Notes under the pieces: generated by a model | The model's database searches: none | Told to the model about the DNA's origin: nothing | The model's input: the letters and a program-made list of their open reading frames with translations, nothing else | NCBI GenBank assembly: GCA_900404475.1 | Contig: OUQQ01000524.1 | Coordinates: 1 to 14,699, forward strand | Direction of reading: 5' to 3' | DNA: 14,699 bases | Origin: Spongospora subterranea | Taxonomy: Eukaryota > Endomyxa > Phytomyxea > Plasmodiophorida > Plasmodiophoridae | Program-made: the position numbers and the translations under genes | In this document: positions 4,857 through 13,417 of the stretch, piece by piece | How positions within the stretch are numbered: position 1 is the first letter of the stretch | Layout of the letters: each line of letters starts with the position of its first letter

Positions 4857-6726
4857 TCAATCGAGCTTCAGTTTGTCACGACGTTTTGTTGATTGGATGA
4901 GGGAATCTGGCGACCTGAACAGTCGAATCAGCGATCGATAGAGCGCTTCTTCCAGCTCAAACTCCTTCTGTTTTCTTGCCACAAATATTCCTATCAATAT
5001 CGATTATTATCAACAAACGCCATGCGAAATTAGACTGCGCTAGTAGGAACCTTCACAAAGCAGCATCAGGTCGCTAACATCGTGAATATCGGTGTACATA
5101 ATCGAGTAAACTTGGTTCTGTACGACAGAACGGAGCAAACGTCCAACAGCCAGCACAATTGTGACGTAGATGGTGGTTATCGACATGGCGATAACAGCCG
5201 CTAGCAGACCAGACTGGATAGTGACAACGTGATCAGCATAGGAATGTGCGAATCGTCAACAATACTCACTGTTGTCGTCTCAGACACAGTGATTGTGCTC
5301 AATCCGGATCCGTCAGCCTTTCTCAGATCCCACCAGCTAACGCCATCCTGCGTTTGGAGCTGCAAAAACAATGTGGAGGCTTTGTCAACGTAGATCGGAG
5401 TGGTCGTTGACTTTGACGATAGCTTCAAATATGTAGGAATGAATTCTCCAGTAATCACTACTGGTTCTGTGGATTCCTTTAGAAGCATGGCGAGCATTGC
5501 ATCCATATCTTTCCTTGTCATATCTATTTGATGCAATTACTGTCTGAGGCCGTCCCAAGAAACTCTCGACGAATACGCACCGGAACTTTTACCAATCGAT
5601 ATCTCAGACGTGGACGCGTCAGTATGAACAAACGAAAAACGAATGTTAAATCGTAATAAAGTATTGGTATCTTTCAGAGTTTGCGTGAAAGAAGCGAGAC
5701 TAGGAGGGGAAAGATTCCAAGGAGAATCCGAATATCCTTTGGCAATCACTGACTGAACCGACCTACTGTCAACATTGCTTCCAAGTTTATCTGTGATACT
5801 CTTAGACGCCACTGCTATGGACAGCGATGTAGTTTCCAATAAGTTAAACTGTAATAGGAATTTGAGTGAAAGCAAAGACCAGGTATATCGCGGCTTACGC
5901 TGATCGTGGAGGTCTGAGCCTGATTTCCTGGTGTCAAAAACAACGTGATTGACCCTCGTTCCACGTTGTTTACTTCATTCGTAACTGGGGATGCAGTTGA
6001 GAACAAAAGAAGTGGCAAACAGATTACAAGCAATAATCCAATAAATAAGAGCGTCCCGTTTGTGAACTTTGTGAGTGAGGGAAACGGCTCGCCTCGTCGA
6101 TGCTCTCGTTTATAAATTAGCTGACCCTTAATGATGTATAGGTTTGAATAAATATCTTCAAGTTTGAACGTCTCTAAGGTTTCAATCTTAGAAATCAGAC
6201 TCTACAGAGAGTCGCAACAACAAACCGAATAAATCTAACGAAGTTTCAATGCTGACCCAATCCAGGAGAACCTGAACGAGGATCAAAAGGTGGCGAAACC
6301 ATGAGGCCATTCATTTCATATTTACAGTACCTCAAGCTCGGCTACAAACGGAATGATCCGATAAATTTTAAATATAAGCAGCCGCGTCTTTGAGGCACGA
6401 TTGAATAACGCACGGTGATGTAGAGTATAGGCTGGATAGCCAGCTCGAATTTGCAAACAGCTTAACCACCAATATGCAGACTTAAACAAGAAAAACAGAA
6501 CCAGATAGCCATTTGAAGAGAATCCGGATTGACGATTCTGAGAACAAAATATGAGTCATTGAAATATGACGAGATTGACGATTACCTTCGGCCATGCATA
6601 AAACATGAGGTACGAAAAGAATATCACTTGGATATATTGGTGCAGAAGCTTCAACGAAACGGAGCGATACAGAAAGTTGAGCCGATCCCAAACTATGAAT
6701 AAAATTTGGGAAAACAGAACTCCGAC
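4857..6726 (-). other. PIEZO pore module (anchor, outer helix, cap, inner helix, C-tail)
   Basis: Exons 4-11 encode the most conserved part. Visible landmarks are DRLNFLYRSVSLK (about 2190), SAYWWLSCLQIRAGYP, then the family signature PF-X2-E-X6-W with P2288, F2289, E2292 and W2299. These are followed by LEDIYSNLYIIKG, the outer helix at about 2350-2372 (LLFIGLLLVICLPLLLF), the extracellular cap about 2373-2575, the inner helix about 2576-2602 (AVIAMSITTIYVTIVLAVG), and a tail with YSIMYTDI, LCEGIFVARK, FELEEALYRSLIRLFRSP. Each has a positional counterpart in animal PIEZO1/2. Intron 5 (6272-6330) cuts the PF-X2-E-X6-W motif, and intron 6 placement (6174-6225) restores the same spacing from DW to ED as in animal PIEZO. 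Confidence 0.93.
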
Positions 6727-9700
6727 CTAAGCGAGACGAAATATCACAACTTGACTTACATTAGCGCAGATACGTACCATCACGCCTTGAAAGGTTTGAG
6801 AGCGTATTTGATCTTGATTGGGATTAGCAGACGCTGTAAGAACATTCCAGCCAAAAAGAATGTAAACCGCTGAGAGCATTTCAATTATGAACGACGGAAC
6901 ATAGTAAGATCGTCCAGGTTTCACTGTGGGATCAGTTGTCCCGGACGGCGTAAGCGCTAACAATCGCGATATAAAGTTGGCCACTCGAACTGGAAGATGA
7001 CTCAGAACAACGGCGACTGGTTCTAGATGTTTATCCTCGATTTGATCTTTACTGTCATTTTCCATTACCAAATCTGGCTCGCTTCGTTTGCCATCAGATT
7101 GTTCCGATACACGACGCTGATCAGAAAATACTACGGATTTCTGTGGCGATGAGTCTAAAGGTTCCTGGGGAGATACCAGAACCGAAACAGAGTTGCTTCG
7201 GAAAGTTGGACTCTGGATGTTAACTGGCGATACTGGCACTAACGCTTCGAATATTTCATCTTCGCATTCATGACAAGTATGATCGATCCCTTGACGCCAT
7301 AATATATGAAGATGACCCGCTGCGCACAGTAGACATATAAAGTCTAGTGCAACGAAGGCAGAAGCGCTCATATCTTGTGTATTCAAAACACCAAAAAATT
7401 GAGCCCATCCTAACGATTGGCTGCCCTGCAATGTGTCGGTAATGGGAGCATCTGGATGCATAGGCGTTGAAGGGACCAGAAACATCAGCAACAGCTTCAG
7501 GCAAATGACGAATTCAGAGAACGCAATACTGAAACTCCAAAATCGCGGGGGTACACGAGGCCTTTCCAGTAATCCATAAAGGAACAGGCCTGTTGGGACT
7601 ACTAGGGATACGAGTGTACCATTAACCATGAGGTTCAACAGAAAGAATGAGACACATATTGACTGGGTATGGCTCAAAAGAAAACGAAAAAGCAGCGCAA
7701 AAAACCCAATGTGTGCATTGGGAGCCGCAGGCCCAGGATTAGCCGCCACGAAATTGTCGACTGATTGAGACAACCCTGAAGGGCTAGCAAAAGCGAAATC
7801 CTCTGGTTTCGGTTCGAGCGTGATGACGTGATTGGTGAAGTTCGACATCTTCGTCTTGACCATTTTGAGGACGGTTTTGAAAAACGATATTGTCACATCT
7901 TCGACATGATGCCTGTTCAGAGAAATTTGCATGGCAATGAGAGCGTCTTCTGAATCGTGAACCGGCTCAATGGTAACTTCAACAACAAACGCTGTTCCAG
8001 CAACAGAATGTGCCTCAGAATTCGCATCATCTCCGTTCGCGGGCAGCCAAGAACTCAGCGTAGCTAAGAGTGACTTGATTTGGATGAGGCCGCCTGATAC
8101 GGCCATTTCGTGGACTGCATTAGCAACTCTCTCGCGGTCGTGATCGTTACGAAAGTGATCGGAGAGTGACGTTCCTAGAATTGATTTCTCCTCGGCGCGA
8201 GCGTCGATCATGTCAATAAACGCTTCCGAATATGCAATAATAGTGTTGCCATCAACGGCTATACGGATCGCTGCAGCGTTGATGTTAAGGATACCGTTAA
8301 CTACCTCGGTGGAGCTATCGTACGTCTTGAAAATTGCGGAAGCATTTGTAGTTTGTGCTTGGCTAGTGGCGTTCAACGTGACATCGAAAACACTTCCCGC
8401 AGAAACTGGGGCCATGAAGAATACTACACCACATATTGTCCCGTCTCCATCGGTGAACGGGGTTACCCAAACCTCTATCTCGATCTGGAGCCGACTCTCC
8501 CTAAATGGTAATTTGAATACTTGGCCTCAAATTTACAAAAACAACACTCACTTTTTAACGAAAGATAGCCTCTGTGTGTCAATATTTTGGGCATCTCGGA
8601 AGCTTTTTGATCGGATACATCTTTTGGCAAGTGCTTTAATATTCGACGCATATTGTCGCGGGAATATATCAGACGCTCGCAAGCCGATAGCATCGGTAGC
8701 GTCCCACTGGGTGAGCAACGAGACTGCGGCATTCCATTCTACGATCTTCCTCTCTTTGTCAACTGTAAAATGTGCAGTTCGCTCAGGGGGAAGCGAAGGC
8801 CACACCTCGGTGTCTTCTAGTTTTTCAAGACCCAGCCGTCGCGTATCTGAGAGCAGGAAATGTAACTGGCGCCGCAATTCAGCTTGAACATGTTTCATCG
8901 AAACAACTTCAGCGATCCTGTTCCGCTTGAAGATTGCCTTAGCAATCTCGAGCCTTGCTTGACCCAGAGCCGACCAACGCTCACGCTGTGCATCTATTTT
9001 CGATAAAGAGACAGGACGGCGAATGCTACGATATACGTCCAACACAGCAAACACAATCAGGAACGAAATGAATCCACCAGGCGACAATGCTTCACCCACA
9101 TTCTTGAAATATCGAAACCCTAAATTGGAGTCAGCAGTTTTGCTGAAAACGGTCTTGGATGTCCACCGTGGAAATGGGGTCTGATAAACTAGCAGAAGAA
9201 AAAATGCAGCAAAATTGAATGCTCTAAGCCAATTCCATGCAGCAGGTTGGTTTGATCCTCGAGCAAAAATCAAAATAGTGTTCAGCATAAGCATCAAGTG
9301 AATCAGATCAGCAAACAGCGACACCCCAATAAACAGCACGACAATCAAAATATGTGGTAAATATGGAAGGATTATGTCAGCGTAATTATCGCTTTTGACA
9401 GTGGTGATTCCAGGGGCTGCTTGTGGGATAGAATTCGGGAAGGACAATGGTGAATAACGGCACAAGGACAAGATCCATAGAGCAGAATACGAAAAAATGA
9501 TATCTGATGAATTTTCGACCAGCAGCGAAAACCAGATGCGAGTGTCCCGGTCCAAGTCAAAATCTGGGAGCGATACAGCTTGCCATGGAGACGGCCCCAA
9601 TGATACCCAGCCTTCGAAAACCGTGATCATGAAGAGTGCACTTCGAGTCAACCTCCAAGAACGAGCACTTAAACCCGAAGAAAACACATAGAAAGACCCC

Positions 9701-12700
9701 CACAGAACGTATAACAGCAGCAACAACAAGTTTCTCCTTGAGGCAACGGAACAAAATATCACGATTGCGGCGCCTTCTAAACCGATGTGGAAGGGGCGTT
9801 CGGAATCCAATATATAGATGATGACGGTTGGCAGCTTGGCAGCTAATCCCAACAAAAAACTTAACAGGATTTTTCGAAGTCGCACCAGTCGACTAATAGG
9901 TTTATCATCGATCGGAATCTCTGATGACGTGCCAGATGGTGAGTTCTCTCGATCGTTCATTGGGACGGCAAGCGTATGGCTTTGCACTGGCCCGCCAGTG
10001 GGGATGGCAACGTCCGCGAAAGCATGCTGGTCTTCGACCTCAATTTCTTTTGCCAGAAAAGAAAGTTTTGCAAAATACCTTTGGGTAAAAATGCAAAAAA
10101 GCAGCATAACTTCGCCACGGAAACCATCGTTTTGCAATAATCCGCCTCGCACAACGTTGAAACCCAGATAGTCGGCAGTAGCACCTGACAGACGAGTTTG
10201 GATTGGCTGTATCTGAAAAATATACCTCGAAAAAGTTGATATCGACACAAGGACGAGCTCTAATAACCACACATGGCGAAATCCACGGTAACGGAGCATC
10301 AAAAATGTGGCTCCAAACACATAGAAAAAACTCACTACTGACGGGTGAATGCAAAATGCGACAAGTGGAAGGAGAGCAACAATTTTCGAAACATGCTTAG
10401 AGCAAATAGAAAGCCTCTTCGATCCTTGACGAATCATTAAGTAGGTCCATGTAGATAAGGAATTTCTCGTGGTATATGCGCCAAAGTAATTGATCCGAAA
10501 GAAGGAAACAGTTAGAAAAAAAACGGTCAACGCTGGAAGTAAGTGCAAAAATAAAGAGTCGGTGACAGTGTTGATTTTAGGCATCCCAATACTATCAAGA
10601 CCAAGGGCATATTCTCGCTGGACTGGATCGTAAATTATACGTATAATATTTTCCACAAGAGACGAAACAACGTCGTACTGAACAGCATACTGTAAAAAGA
10701 CCACACTTGCCGTGTATGCAACTGAGAATGACCAAAGAAGCTGGGAGCGTCGTCTGGCTTGCCCACTGGTCAATGCAGCCATGAGTAATGCAGCTAAACC
10801 CAAGATAAGATAACCGCAGTTGAATAACGTCGGCGACTCCAGCATAGAAATCAGGAATAAAGCTCCACAAACTATCAGAGAGCCAAAATTGAGGAACGCT
10901 TGATTAAAAACGGAAGAGAAGTTAACCACGTATTGGATGCCAGAGGTATTCCAGGACGAGCTTGACTCTTCCCAAATGGATCGTTGACGTTCATTGATGA
11001 AATGAAGTTGGGATATACAGAAAGCGGTTGCTAACGCCGGAGCGAAAAATGACGCGAAAAAAGGATCTAATGGGATTAAGCCGATCGATTGGAAAATAGT
11101 GTTCAACTTCCCATCAGGAGCAATGTTGACTACAGTAGCTCCATACTGGCATAGAAGAGCCGCTGCACAAAACATAGCTAAAGGTAGCCATTTATCTCTA
11201 CGGGTAGAGAGTTTCGGCATCGAGACATAAAGAAGCGCGATTAGAACGTATCCAATGTGAAGTAGGTCAATTTTGGACAGGCCAACAAAAAAGACGATCA
11301 ACAGTGCGATCTTTGCGCCATAAAGAATTAGAGCTGCCTTGATCATTCGCCTGATTTTCGACCAGATATCGGAGAGTTGCTCTTTCATCGATTCCCAACT
11401 GAAAAGAGGTTTCTCTGTGTTCTCAACTTGTTGAGACTCCCAGCGATGGCTGGTGTCTGCACCGTATCTCAGTAACAGCTTCGTTATTCGCGAATGCGTC
11501 GATAACTCCAACGCGGAACGCCCATCAGCATCTAAGACATTAAGAAGAGAAACGCCGCCACGATGAAGAACGATTTCAACGGACTCAATGTGAGAATGAA
11601 GCACAGCACTATGGAGCGCAGTTCGACCGCGCTCATCCACAGCAGAAACAAAAAAATCTCGATCGCGAGCTAATGCCATGTCTATGAAATTTTCGTCTCC
11701 CTCAATAGCGGCGTGTATGATACTGTCAACAGAAAGCGGCGCTCTGGCAAGTGCTCGCCGGTTGGCGCTGCCACGACAGTATAAAGATAAAATCAGCGGG
11801 GGACACACAAACAACAGCATTCGGAATGGAATAGCCCATGTACTTCTGGTAATACCAAGAAATTCAATTGACTGGAGATTTAGATCGTAAAGCCAAGGAA
11901 CAGAGAAGAAAATGAAAGCACAGCAAGCGAAGATAACAGCCACAGGCACAAGGAAAGTGGGGGCAATTTCGGAAAATCTTCGATTACCCATAAGTAATCC
12001 GAAAAAAACAAATACCATCAATGCTAAATTAAACCCGTTGCGATGAAAGGCAAACACTACTACAAGTGCGAAGATACAGATTGAGATTTCAAAGTTCCGC
12101 AAAACTGAAGTGATCATCATCGAAATTCCTGCAGAGACATTTCGCTTATGATCTTCAAATACAGAGCTTCCCTCACGAATATGTAGCCTATCGGGTGCAG
12201 ATCCCGCTCGCGCGATCTCAGGCATCGCCAAATTGGCATGGGGTTCAACAGCTGGAATAACATCTGTTATCACTTGGTCTGGTCGAAATCCAAAGCTCCG
12301 CTGGTCTTCGTTCTCCAATGCTAGAGGCCTAGGCCTTCTTTCAGGACTATGATCGCTTCCATTCTGGATTGAAGGGCGAGACCCTATACCATTATCGTCG
12401 CTAATGTTGTTATCAGGAGATATTGGTCTGGTTAAGAGTATGCTCGCTCTGGGTTCCGGTCGATCTTGGCTTTCCGCAACATTCGGGATGGGGACCGGGT
12501 CTGTTTTGGCGCGCAATAGCGGATGAATTGGGCCAACATTTCCAATCTCATTTCTATCTGCCGCCCTTGTTTGAGCAGCATGCCTGAAATATGCTCGCGA
12601 AAATATCATAAACAGAAATATGTGGATAATCATGGATAGAAGAAGAAACCAATCCTCTTGATCCCATTCAGTCCCTCGATAAGGTAAAATTCCCAGAAAT

Positions 12701-13417
12701 TGTCGAATTACAAGAGGAAATGCTCCGAACAACGAGCTGATGCGCAAAATCGAGATGACGATGATGTGACAGCATGAATAAAACAGCAATATTTGCCTAA
12801 AGGGACTTAAGTCGGCTTTAGTCAAGGAGTATACCCCTTTTCGCAAGAAAGAAGTAAGACGGTGATACTCAATGGCATTGAGAACCACCACGACGCCAAA
12901 CAGCAAGGCATATGGTATTCGGAAGACATTGGGTGAGATTATACAAGCAGTGAAGCTGCCAATGGTAAAAACGAAAACCTAGCCACAATAATGTCAAACA
13001 GATGATTAATTAAATGATTGTATAAACAATTACCCTGAAACGCCCAATCTCTTCAGAATCGTCAGAGCCACTGTCCGTAATGGATACTTTTGAGCCAGAT
13101 TTGCTGATTATTTCGATCAGAGAGCAAATAAGTGCAGTCACTGTTGCCACTGTGAAGATTATGACATCCCAGTTCCACGAGATGGCGTAATTGAATATTT
13201 CCCAATGATTGGCACTCAAAACTCCTGATGGTGTCGCGATAAACACGAGTAGACCGATCAGCCATGCTGTGGTGGCAAACGCTGTAAGTATCGGCCACGC
13301 CCGGGAATGCGATACCGATAAGCGGCAAAACGCAATGAGCAGGAACAGAACCGAAACGGCTCCTTCAGATGCGACACCAGCGACAAACACAGACAATACA
13401 GCCAGCAACGCTAGCAT
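4857..13417 (-). CDS. PIEZO: PIEZO-family mechanosensitive channel with ankyrin and tandem PAS domains
   Basis: The complete gene encodes 2,673 residues, within the 2,100-2,900 usual for PIEZO. Inferred exons: 13417-13034, 12978-8552, 8500-6778, 6726-6586, 6537-6331, 6271-6226, 6173-5899, 5848-5581, 5523-5270, 5213-5051 and 4990-4857; all phases agree and the stop is TGA 4859-4857. An in-frame TAG (13456-13454) lies 13 codons upstream of the ATG. About 38 hydrophobic segments can be counted, as in PIEZO blades plus pore. Order: blade helices 1-540, ankyrin repeats 543-640, blade helices to about 1445, charged beam-like helix 1450-1520, PAS1 1525-1640, PAS2 1673-1800, a block with LSHTQSICV (about 1879) typical of PIEZO, then anchor, outer helix, extracellular cap, inner helix and tail. 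PIEZOs form homotrimeric, tension-gated cation channels in plasma or ciliary membranes. The family call is firm. The effects of the extra domains are inference. Confidence 0.95.
7912..8295 (-). other. PAS-like domain 2 in the PIEZO channel (residues about 1673-1800)
   Basis: The segment starts INAAAIRIAVDGNTIIAYSE, continues with AEEKSILGTSLSDHF and HDRERVANAVHEM, and ends in two strands, FVVEVTIEPV and DALIAMQISLNR. This strand-strand-helix-helix-long helix-three strand order is the PAS pattern, including the dG.ii..s..f start and the ilG.sl.d.f turn. A roughly 20-residue polar insertion (LPANGDDANSEAHS) lies in the loop before the last strands. No LOV-type GXNCRFLQ cysteine motif is present. 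The ligand is unknown. It is coded within one exon. Confidence 0.75.
8392..8790 (-). other. PAS-like domain 1 in the PIEZO channel (residues about 1525-1640)
   Basis: The segment reads AHFTVDKERKIVEWNAAV with the PAS hallmark W1543-N1544, then ATDAIGLRASDIF, a helical part with two arginine-rich turns, and after a 51-nt intron (8501-8551) the strands RLQIEIEVWVTPFTDGDG and ICGVVFFMAP. The hallmark WN, the IG..-D-F turn and the P-F-D-G hairpin all sit where PAS domains have them. It follows the beam-like charged helix with only a short linker, so any conformational change here would be next to the PIEZO gating lever. No heme, flavin or LOV signature can be assigned. Confidence 0.82.
11443..11736 (-). 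other. Ankyrin repeats in a PIEZO blade loop (residues about 543-640)
   Basis: Three consecutive units are readable: SVDSIIHAAIEGDENFIDMA, DERGRTALHSAVLHSHIESV with EIVLHRGG, and DADGRSALELSTHSRITKLL with LRYGAD. The middle unit has the full D-x-x-G-x-T-A-L-H consensus. The third is slightly degenerate (S-A-L-E) and the first lacks the TALH start. The block sits between hydrophobic segments around residues 520 and 675, so topology puts it in a cytoplasmic loop of the blade. Ankyrin repeats normally bind partner proteins or act as springs, as in NOMPC-type TRP channels. Confidence 0.85.

Follow-up and report, generated by a model that had tools for sequence, protein, structure and literature searches.

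In human PIEZO1, the beam, the lateral plugs, the latch and the clasp, as well as a disordered segment, all belong to the linker that joins THU7 to THU8 (PMC12308237). In PIEZO2, deletion of the disordered latch-to-clasp sequence leads to a higher single-channel conductance, which the authors credit to unblocked lateral portals, and deletion of the clasp-to-THU8 sequence alters velocity sensitivity (PMC8924262). Among ion channels with a PAS domain, the KCNH (EAG/hERG) potassium channels are the most fitting precedent; their cytosolic PAS acts through contacts between intracellular domains; unlike the protein described here, these are voltage-gated tetramers, unrelated to PIEZO, with one PAS located at the N-terminus. 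The PAS of hERG binds another cytosolic domain as well as other PAS domains, and added PAS inhibits hERG currents (PMC8693265).

No report of PAS domains or ankyrin repeats in a PIEZO was found in the titles and abstract openings of the open-access papers searched, in line with the initial annotation of this DNA, which knew of no description of such an architecture. In three papers combining the terms Piezo, PAS domain and mechanosensitive, the passages that mention PAS deal with hERG, with photoreceptors or with the PAS family in general, not with PIEZO (PMC8421374, PMC12346119, PMC8584932). Here, we analyse a stretch of 14,699 nt of Spongospora subterranea DNA, hereafter the window, whose predicted PIEZO is otherwise complete and carries two PAS domains, the second lower-scoring, in the interval from the beam end to the helix preceding THU8, together with ankyrin repeats in the blade. 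We consider this anatomy close to certain.

Gene model and PIEZO identity

The minus strand of the window encodes, according to predicted splicing, a complete PIEZO gene running from 13417 to a stop at 4857, with 11 exons and a product of 2673 amino acids (Table 1). Its 10 introns, whose GT-AG sites are predicted from the sequence, measure 48-60 nt each; the start codon was picked by position and constitutes the least certain part of the gene model. The long frame of exon 2 (4427 nt) stayed open in none of 2000 base shuffles of this exon. The sole predicted splice junction of the PAS region lies inside PAS1 (8551-8501), and exons 2 and 3 each carry PAS and PIEZO sequence without a break; a separate PAS transcript is thus very unlikely, as it would require breaking exons that already hold PIEZO sequence. 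The codon make-up of the PAS region, when compared with the remaining gene, gives no sign of a recent foreign origin, with GC3 values of 0.470 for PAS1 and 0.447 for PAS2 against a mean of 0.445 (sd 0.048, windows of 115 codons).

The identity of the protein was established with Pfam profiles. The spliced C-terminal part exceeded the cut-offs of Piezo_THU9_anchor (209.4 bits for a cut-off of 28) and Piezo_cap (167.5 bits for 26.9), and exon 3 that of the THU8 model THU_Piezo1 (68.3 bits for 27.2). The blade profile Piezo_TM1-24 reached 26.5 bits (E 2.8e-6), slightly below its cut-off of 28.8; it is no strict criterion of a PIEZO, since two of the homologues presented below (P0001 and P0004) are also without a match. 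The PFEW motif (PF..E......W) conserved among PIEZOs (PMC3681921) is present as PFVAELEVLLDW at residues 2288-2299, the motif spacing being judged by eye. A simple hydropathy threshold yielded 34 peaks, one of them within PAS1, for a PIEZO expectation of about 38 transmembrane helices in 4-helix units. The predicted gene product is a true PIEZO subunit. As in animal PIEZO1 and PIEZO2, a beam-like helix, THU8, the THU9-anchor region, the cap and the PF..E......W motif are present in the same order; in contrast with these proteins, in which the linker is intracellular and consists of a largely disordered latch-to-clasp sequence, S. subterranea has PAS1 and PAS2 at this place, plus the ankyrin repeats of the blade.

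Two further coding features flank the gene on the same strand. Downstream, in a higher-GC stretch, an RCC1-repeat protein spans 3829-2642, with three open frames over the RCC1 cut-off, and just upstream, near the contig end, a tetratricopeptide-like repeat is found at 14339-14142 (TPR_1 2.7e-5, below cut-off). A scan of the window with Rfam gave no match.

Table 1. Features of the PIEZO gene in the window, with the evidence on which each was placed
Feature	Positions	Strand	Basis
Entire PIEZO gene (11 exons encoding 2673 aa)	4857..13417	-	GT-AG splicing; Pfam Piezo cap and THU9-anchor
Exon 1, first blade helices	13034..13417	-	predicted gene model; start codon by position
Exon 2: blade, ankyrin repeats, beam and initial part of PAS1, one open frame	8552..12978	-	4427 nt
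Ankyrin repeats (about 3), residues 545-638, within the blade and preceded by 11 TM-like helices as detected	11449..11730	-	Ank_2, E 7.7e-9; simple hydropathy
Beam-like charged helix ("beam" by analogy), residues 1455-1527; EVWP motif (8808-8797) near its end	8782..9000	-	alignment with relatives
PAS1, residues 1528-1642, interrupted by intron 8551-8501	8386..8781	-	PF00989, E 1.7e-10
51-nt GT-AG intron within PAS1, with in-frame stops	8501..8551	-	gene model
Exon 3: remainder of PAS1, PAS2, into THU8, one open frame	6778..8500	-	gene model
PAS2, residues 1684-1797	7921..8262	-	PAS_9, E 1.5e-4, under the curated score; forms the second of the two stretches matched by the tandem
Amphipathic clasp-like helix ("clasp" by analogy), residues ~1805-1830, before THU8	7822..7899	-	alignment with relatives
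THU8, residues ~1878-2008	7288..7680	-	PF23188, E 8.2e-19
THU9 and anchor, including the PF..E......W motif	5998..6921	-	PF24874, E 6.9e-62
Cap, inner helix and C-terminal domain, bounds approximate	4857..5899	-	PF12166, E 6.7e-49

The PAS pair and the ankyrin repeats

The spliced sequence of PAS1 scored 41.3 bits with PF00989, above the cut-off of 22.6, and also matched PAS_4 (2.6e-7) and PAS_9 (3.4e-6). Taken alone, PAS2 reached 22.4 bits with PAS_9, under the curated cut-off of 27; further backing comes from its tandem position and from its alignment with the PAS-like stretch of two sister proteins (see below). In tandem, PAS1 and PAS2 matched PAS_9 at 8.4e-12 over two stretches and exceeded the cut-off of the NCBIfam model sensory_box (1.1e-5). 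The Pfam profiles and the continuity of the exons confirm what the initial annotation had proposed, namely a PAS pair between the beam and THU8 of an otherwise complete PIEZO, and the interval it gave for the pair, 7912-8790, agrees by residue count with ours (8781-8386 for PAS1 and 8262-7921 for PAS2). The search of the spliced protein with Pfam models, which it had suggested as a check, placed PAS1, THU8, the THU9-anchor region and the cap over their cut-offs and PAS2 and Piezo_TM1-24 below theirs; its domain inventory was right about the PAS pair but overlooked the ankyrin repeats at residues 545-638.

A sequence search of the PDB with PAS1 returned phytochrome chains for all seven matches at E up to 1, six of them being phytochrome B (E 0.004-0.01), with no individual stretch significant alone; the same search with PAS2 gave three weak matches, none of them a PAS. 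AlphaFold2 models computed from the single sequence had a pLDDT of 34 for the pair and 37 for PAS2 alone, too low to be used, and when short pieces were aligned to relatives of full length, the short row came out scattered, so that these alignments were kept out of folding. The PAS2 model displays the element order strand-strand-helices-strand-strand, which carries no evidential weight at a pLDDT of 37, and Foldseek found no match to it at E <= 0.001. As the structure models are unusable, the PAS fold rests on the profiles. Binding of flavin by LOV photoreceptors involves a cysteine motif, GxNCRFLQ; by eye, it is absent from both PAS1 (GLRASDIFPRQ) and PAS2 (GTSLSDHFRND), and inspection of the pair revealed no clear heme site of the FixL type.

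The ankyrin repeats, searched as an isolated piece, exceeded the cut-offs of both Ank_2 (36.4 bits for 27.3) and Ank (3.6e-8). Provided that one helix escaped detection, they would lie near the boundary between the third and fourth blade units. Ankyrin repeats also occur in mechanosensitive channels of the NOMPC/TRPN type; unlike in the present protein, with its approximately three repeats within the blade, the pore is there unrelated and some 29 repeats are N-terminal.

The assembly that holds the PIEZO contig (20.6 Mb, 679 contigs) was searched exon by exon, a procedure with which the PAS_9 profile missed the pair of the PIEZO gene itself. At E <= 0.001, PF00989 had a single match, the PIEZO gene, and PAS_9 and PAS_3 had none, a scarcity of PAS elsewhere in the assembly that is suggestive only; Ank_2 had 86 matches. 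A second, divergent PIEZO is located on contig C315 (~43800-49970), where four stretches in or beside the gene, covering it in part, gave neither PAS nor ankyrin hits at E <= 1.

Linker domains among related PIEZOs

Homologues were collected via three protein searches, each of which scored only the ~8000 candidates sharing the most words with the query. Exon 3 as the sole query identified no homologue at E <= 0.001 among 7992 candidates scored, the pore side of the S. subterranea PIEZO identified 20, and the pore side of P0001 (Cercozoa sp. M6MM) identified 12 including itself, for a total of 31 proteins. The best relative found was P0021 (EukProt 846875_1), with ~32% identity to the S. subterranea PIEZO over the C-terminal third. 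In the precomputed Pfam lists of the 31 homologues, PAS is absent throughout, ankyrin appears in three (P0001, P0022 and P0023) and fn3 in two (P0007 and P0027).

The full-length sequences of twelve of these proteins (P0001-P0004, P0006, P0007, P0021-P0023 and P0026-P0028) were rescanned, matches being admitted up to an E of 1. A PAS match was obtained in one of the twelve, P0001 (best E 0.078), and none in P0021; ankyrin was detected in four, namely P0001 (Ank_2 5.2e-8), P0021 (Ank_2 4e-5, below cut-off), P0022 and P0023, at the same blade site as in S. subterranea. The beam-to-THU8 linkers of six proteins were then scanned in isolation. PAS was the best match in both P0001 (PAS_8 0.0042, PAS_9 0.0048) and P0021 (PAS_9 0.027) and was found in none of the four control linkers (P0022, P0023, P0002 and P0003) at E up to 1; one control linker had a chance match, at 0.022, to an unrelated family, which is comparable to the PAS_9 value of P0021. 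Shorter pieces of the two sister linkers gave PAS_9 values of 0.0022 (P0001) and 0.0072 (P0021). Searched with phmmer against the 31 homologues, PAS1 and PAS2 matched nothing beyond the window's own translation, neither P0001 nor P0021 being recovered, and only two columns are invariant among the four aligned PAS pieces. The full-length alignment places the PAS-like stretch of the sister proteins over PAS2; it is bounded on one side by the motif at the beam end (EVWP in S. subterranea) and on the other by the conserved amphipathic helix before THU8. P0001 and P0021, which are about 32% identical to the S. subterranea PIEZO on the pore side, hence resemble it in having ankyrin matches at the corresponding blade site and a PAS-like match in the linker, but this PAS-like match is single, weak by score and degenerate, and is persuasive mainly by its shared position. 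With regard to PAS and Piezo within one protein in other protists, a combination that the initial annotation had suggested looking for, these weak single matches in P0001 and P0021 were obtained, PAS being absent from all 31 precomputed lists.

The same linker accommodates other folded domains elsewhere. Between the beam and THU8, the oomycete PIEZO of Phytophthora pseudosyringae (P0027, residues 1565-1796) has fn3 (3.9e-14) and PH (1.9e-6, over cut-off), and that of Aphanomyces astaci (P0007, residues 925-1152) has fn3 (1.1e-11) and a PH match below cut-off; unlike the S. subterranea protein, neither displays a PAS or ankyrin match. By eye, the linker appears disordered in P0022 and P0023. 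The initial annotation, which took described PIEZOs to be blade plus pore without small-molecule sensor domains, was too categorical as regards additional domains, two oomycete proteins carrying fn3, one of them with PH over its cut-off as well. That the linker takes different domains in different lineages leaves less room for calling the S. subterranea protein unique and adds to the interest of the pattern.

A tree of 23 pore-side sequences groups the S. subterranea PIEZO with P0001 and P0021 at 82/62, which is not strong; this trio is nested in a six-row set, completed by P0022, P0023 and P0002, at 95/98. The tree contains several long branches, and the program flagged an unlike letter make-up in 13 rows, including P0001. 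Judged by the grouping with P0001, the host is probably a cercozoan. Ankyrin models are matched by each of the five proteins of the six-row set that extend over the ankyrin site, in P0021 with a score under the cut-off; the sixth, P0002, is a partial protein without residues there. The ankyrin-bearing PIEZOs thus seem to form a wider clade than the PAS-bearing ones. The simplest history would be an ankyrin insertion first, then the acquisition of one PAS in the branch of S. subterranea, P0001 and P0021, followed by the gain of a second PAS in the S. subterranea lineage or by the loss of one in the others. Among possible related loci, 21 pattern matches in genome contigs and 91 in viral contigs were obtained, none of which was confirmed.

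Possible roles of the PAS pair

We favor, with a probability of roughly 0.6, a PIEZO with an intrinsic cytosolic modulator of gating that would operate in the manner of the PAS of KCNH/hERG channels. Because the linker of animal PIEZOs holds the plug, latch and clasp elements and because PIEZO2 deletions in it alter the channel, a folded PAS pair would be well sited to set the coupling between blade and pore. With three subunits assembled, six PAS domains would come to lie under the pore and next to the beam, plug and latch, where contacts between PAS domains or between PAS and channel may determine how easily movement of the beam reaches the pore, and thereby threshold, inactivation or conductance. 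The ankyrin repeats, for their part, may bind a partner on the blade, possibly of the cytoskeleton. Modulation through contacts is preferred over cofactor sensing owing to the KCNH/hERG precedent and to the lack, by eye, of a LOV or clear heme signature; that the pair acts without any bound cofactor has, in our estimate, slightly less than an even chance. Against a gating modulator, we weighed the score of PAS2 below its cut-off, the weak matches of the sister proteins, the 82/62 node and the second PIEZO of the assembly, devoid of PAS or ankyrin matches in the scanned stretches.

Alternatively, as in part of what the initial annotation had proposed, the pair could bind a small molecule or cofactor (a metabolite, heme, flavin, or a redox or light cofactor) that tunes or gates the channel, which would then register force and chemistry jointly as a coincidence detector. 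PAS domains often bind ligands, the PDB sequence matches of PAS1 are all phytochromes, albeit with no single stretch significant alone, and, by eye, PAS2 retains a histidine close to the beginning of the helix that serves for heme binding in PAS of the FixL type. However, neither domain has a motif resembling the LOV GxNCRFLQ, and the matched PAS pair of phytochromes is distinct from the bilin-binding GAF; we judge such a role unlikely. Slightly more doubtful again is the wider proposition that a cercozoan lineage evolved a polymodal PIEZO: the PAS pair, located where beam and pore are coupled, would bind a ligand or cofactor and thereby tune or gate force sensing, and the ankyrin repeats of the blade would anchor the channel to a partner; were it true, this lineage would possess a natural, chemically tunable force channel.

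The PAS domains could also be structural filler, either a folded spacer or a relic in a linker tolerant to insertions, with little effect on gating. This would fit a linker that, on visual inspection, looks disordered in P0022 and P0023 and that is filled with fn3 and PH in oomycetes, as well as the degenerate PAS matches of the sister proteins and the sub-threshold score of PAS2. Yet PAS1 scores 41 bits in a protein whose best relative, P0021, is only 32% identical over the C-terminal third, and there are two copies of PAS rather than a loss, which makes mere filler improbable. Lastly, an artefact of gene model or assembly, in which the PAS exons of another gene were fused to PIEZO, would draw on splice sites that are predictions but is hardly credible, a chimera or separate PAS gene being ruled out by the single junction inside PAS1, with both flanking exons running from PAS into PIEZO uninterrupted, and more weakly by the PAS-like matches that P0001 and P0021 have in the corresponding position.

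Returning to the favored modulator of gating, the presence of PAS and ankyrin domains in a PIEZO hints at a force channel that carries its own means of regulation, and a PAS-bearing PIEZO offers a template for engineered force channels under regulation. How movement of the blade is passed on to the pore of PIEZO remains a matter of debate, and folded, transferable modules in the beam-to-THU8 linker constitute a natural experiment on this question. With PAS in the lineage of S. subterranea, fn3 and PH in oomycetes and disorder in animals, a general pattern may emerge in which this linker is the place where evolution adds control to PIEZO.
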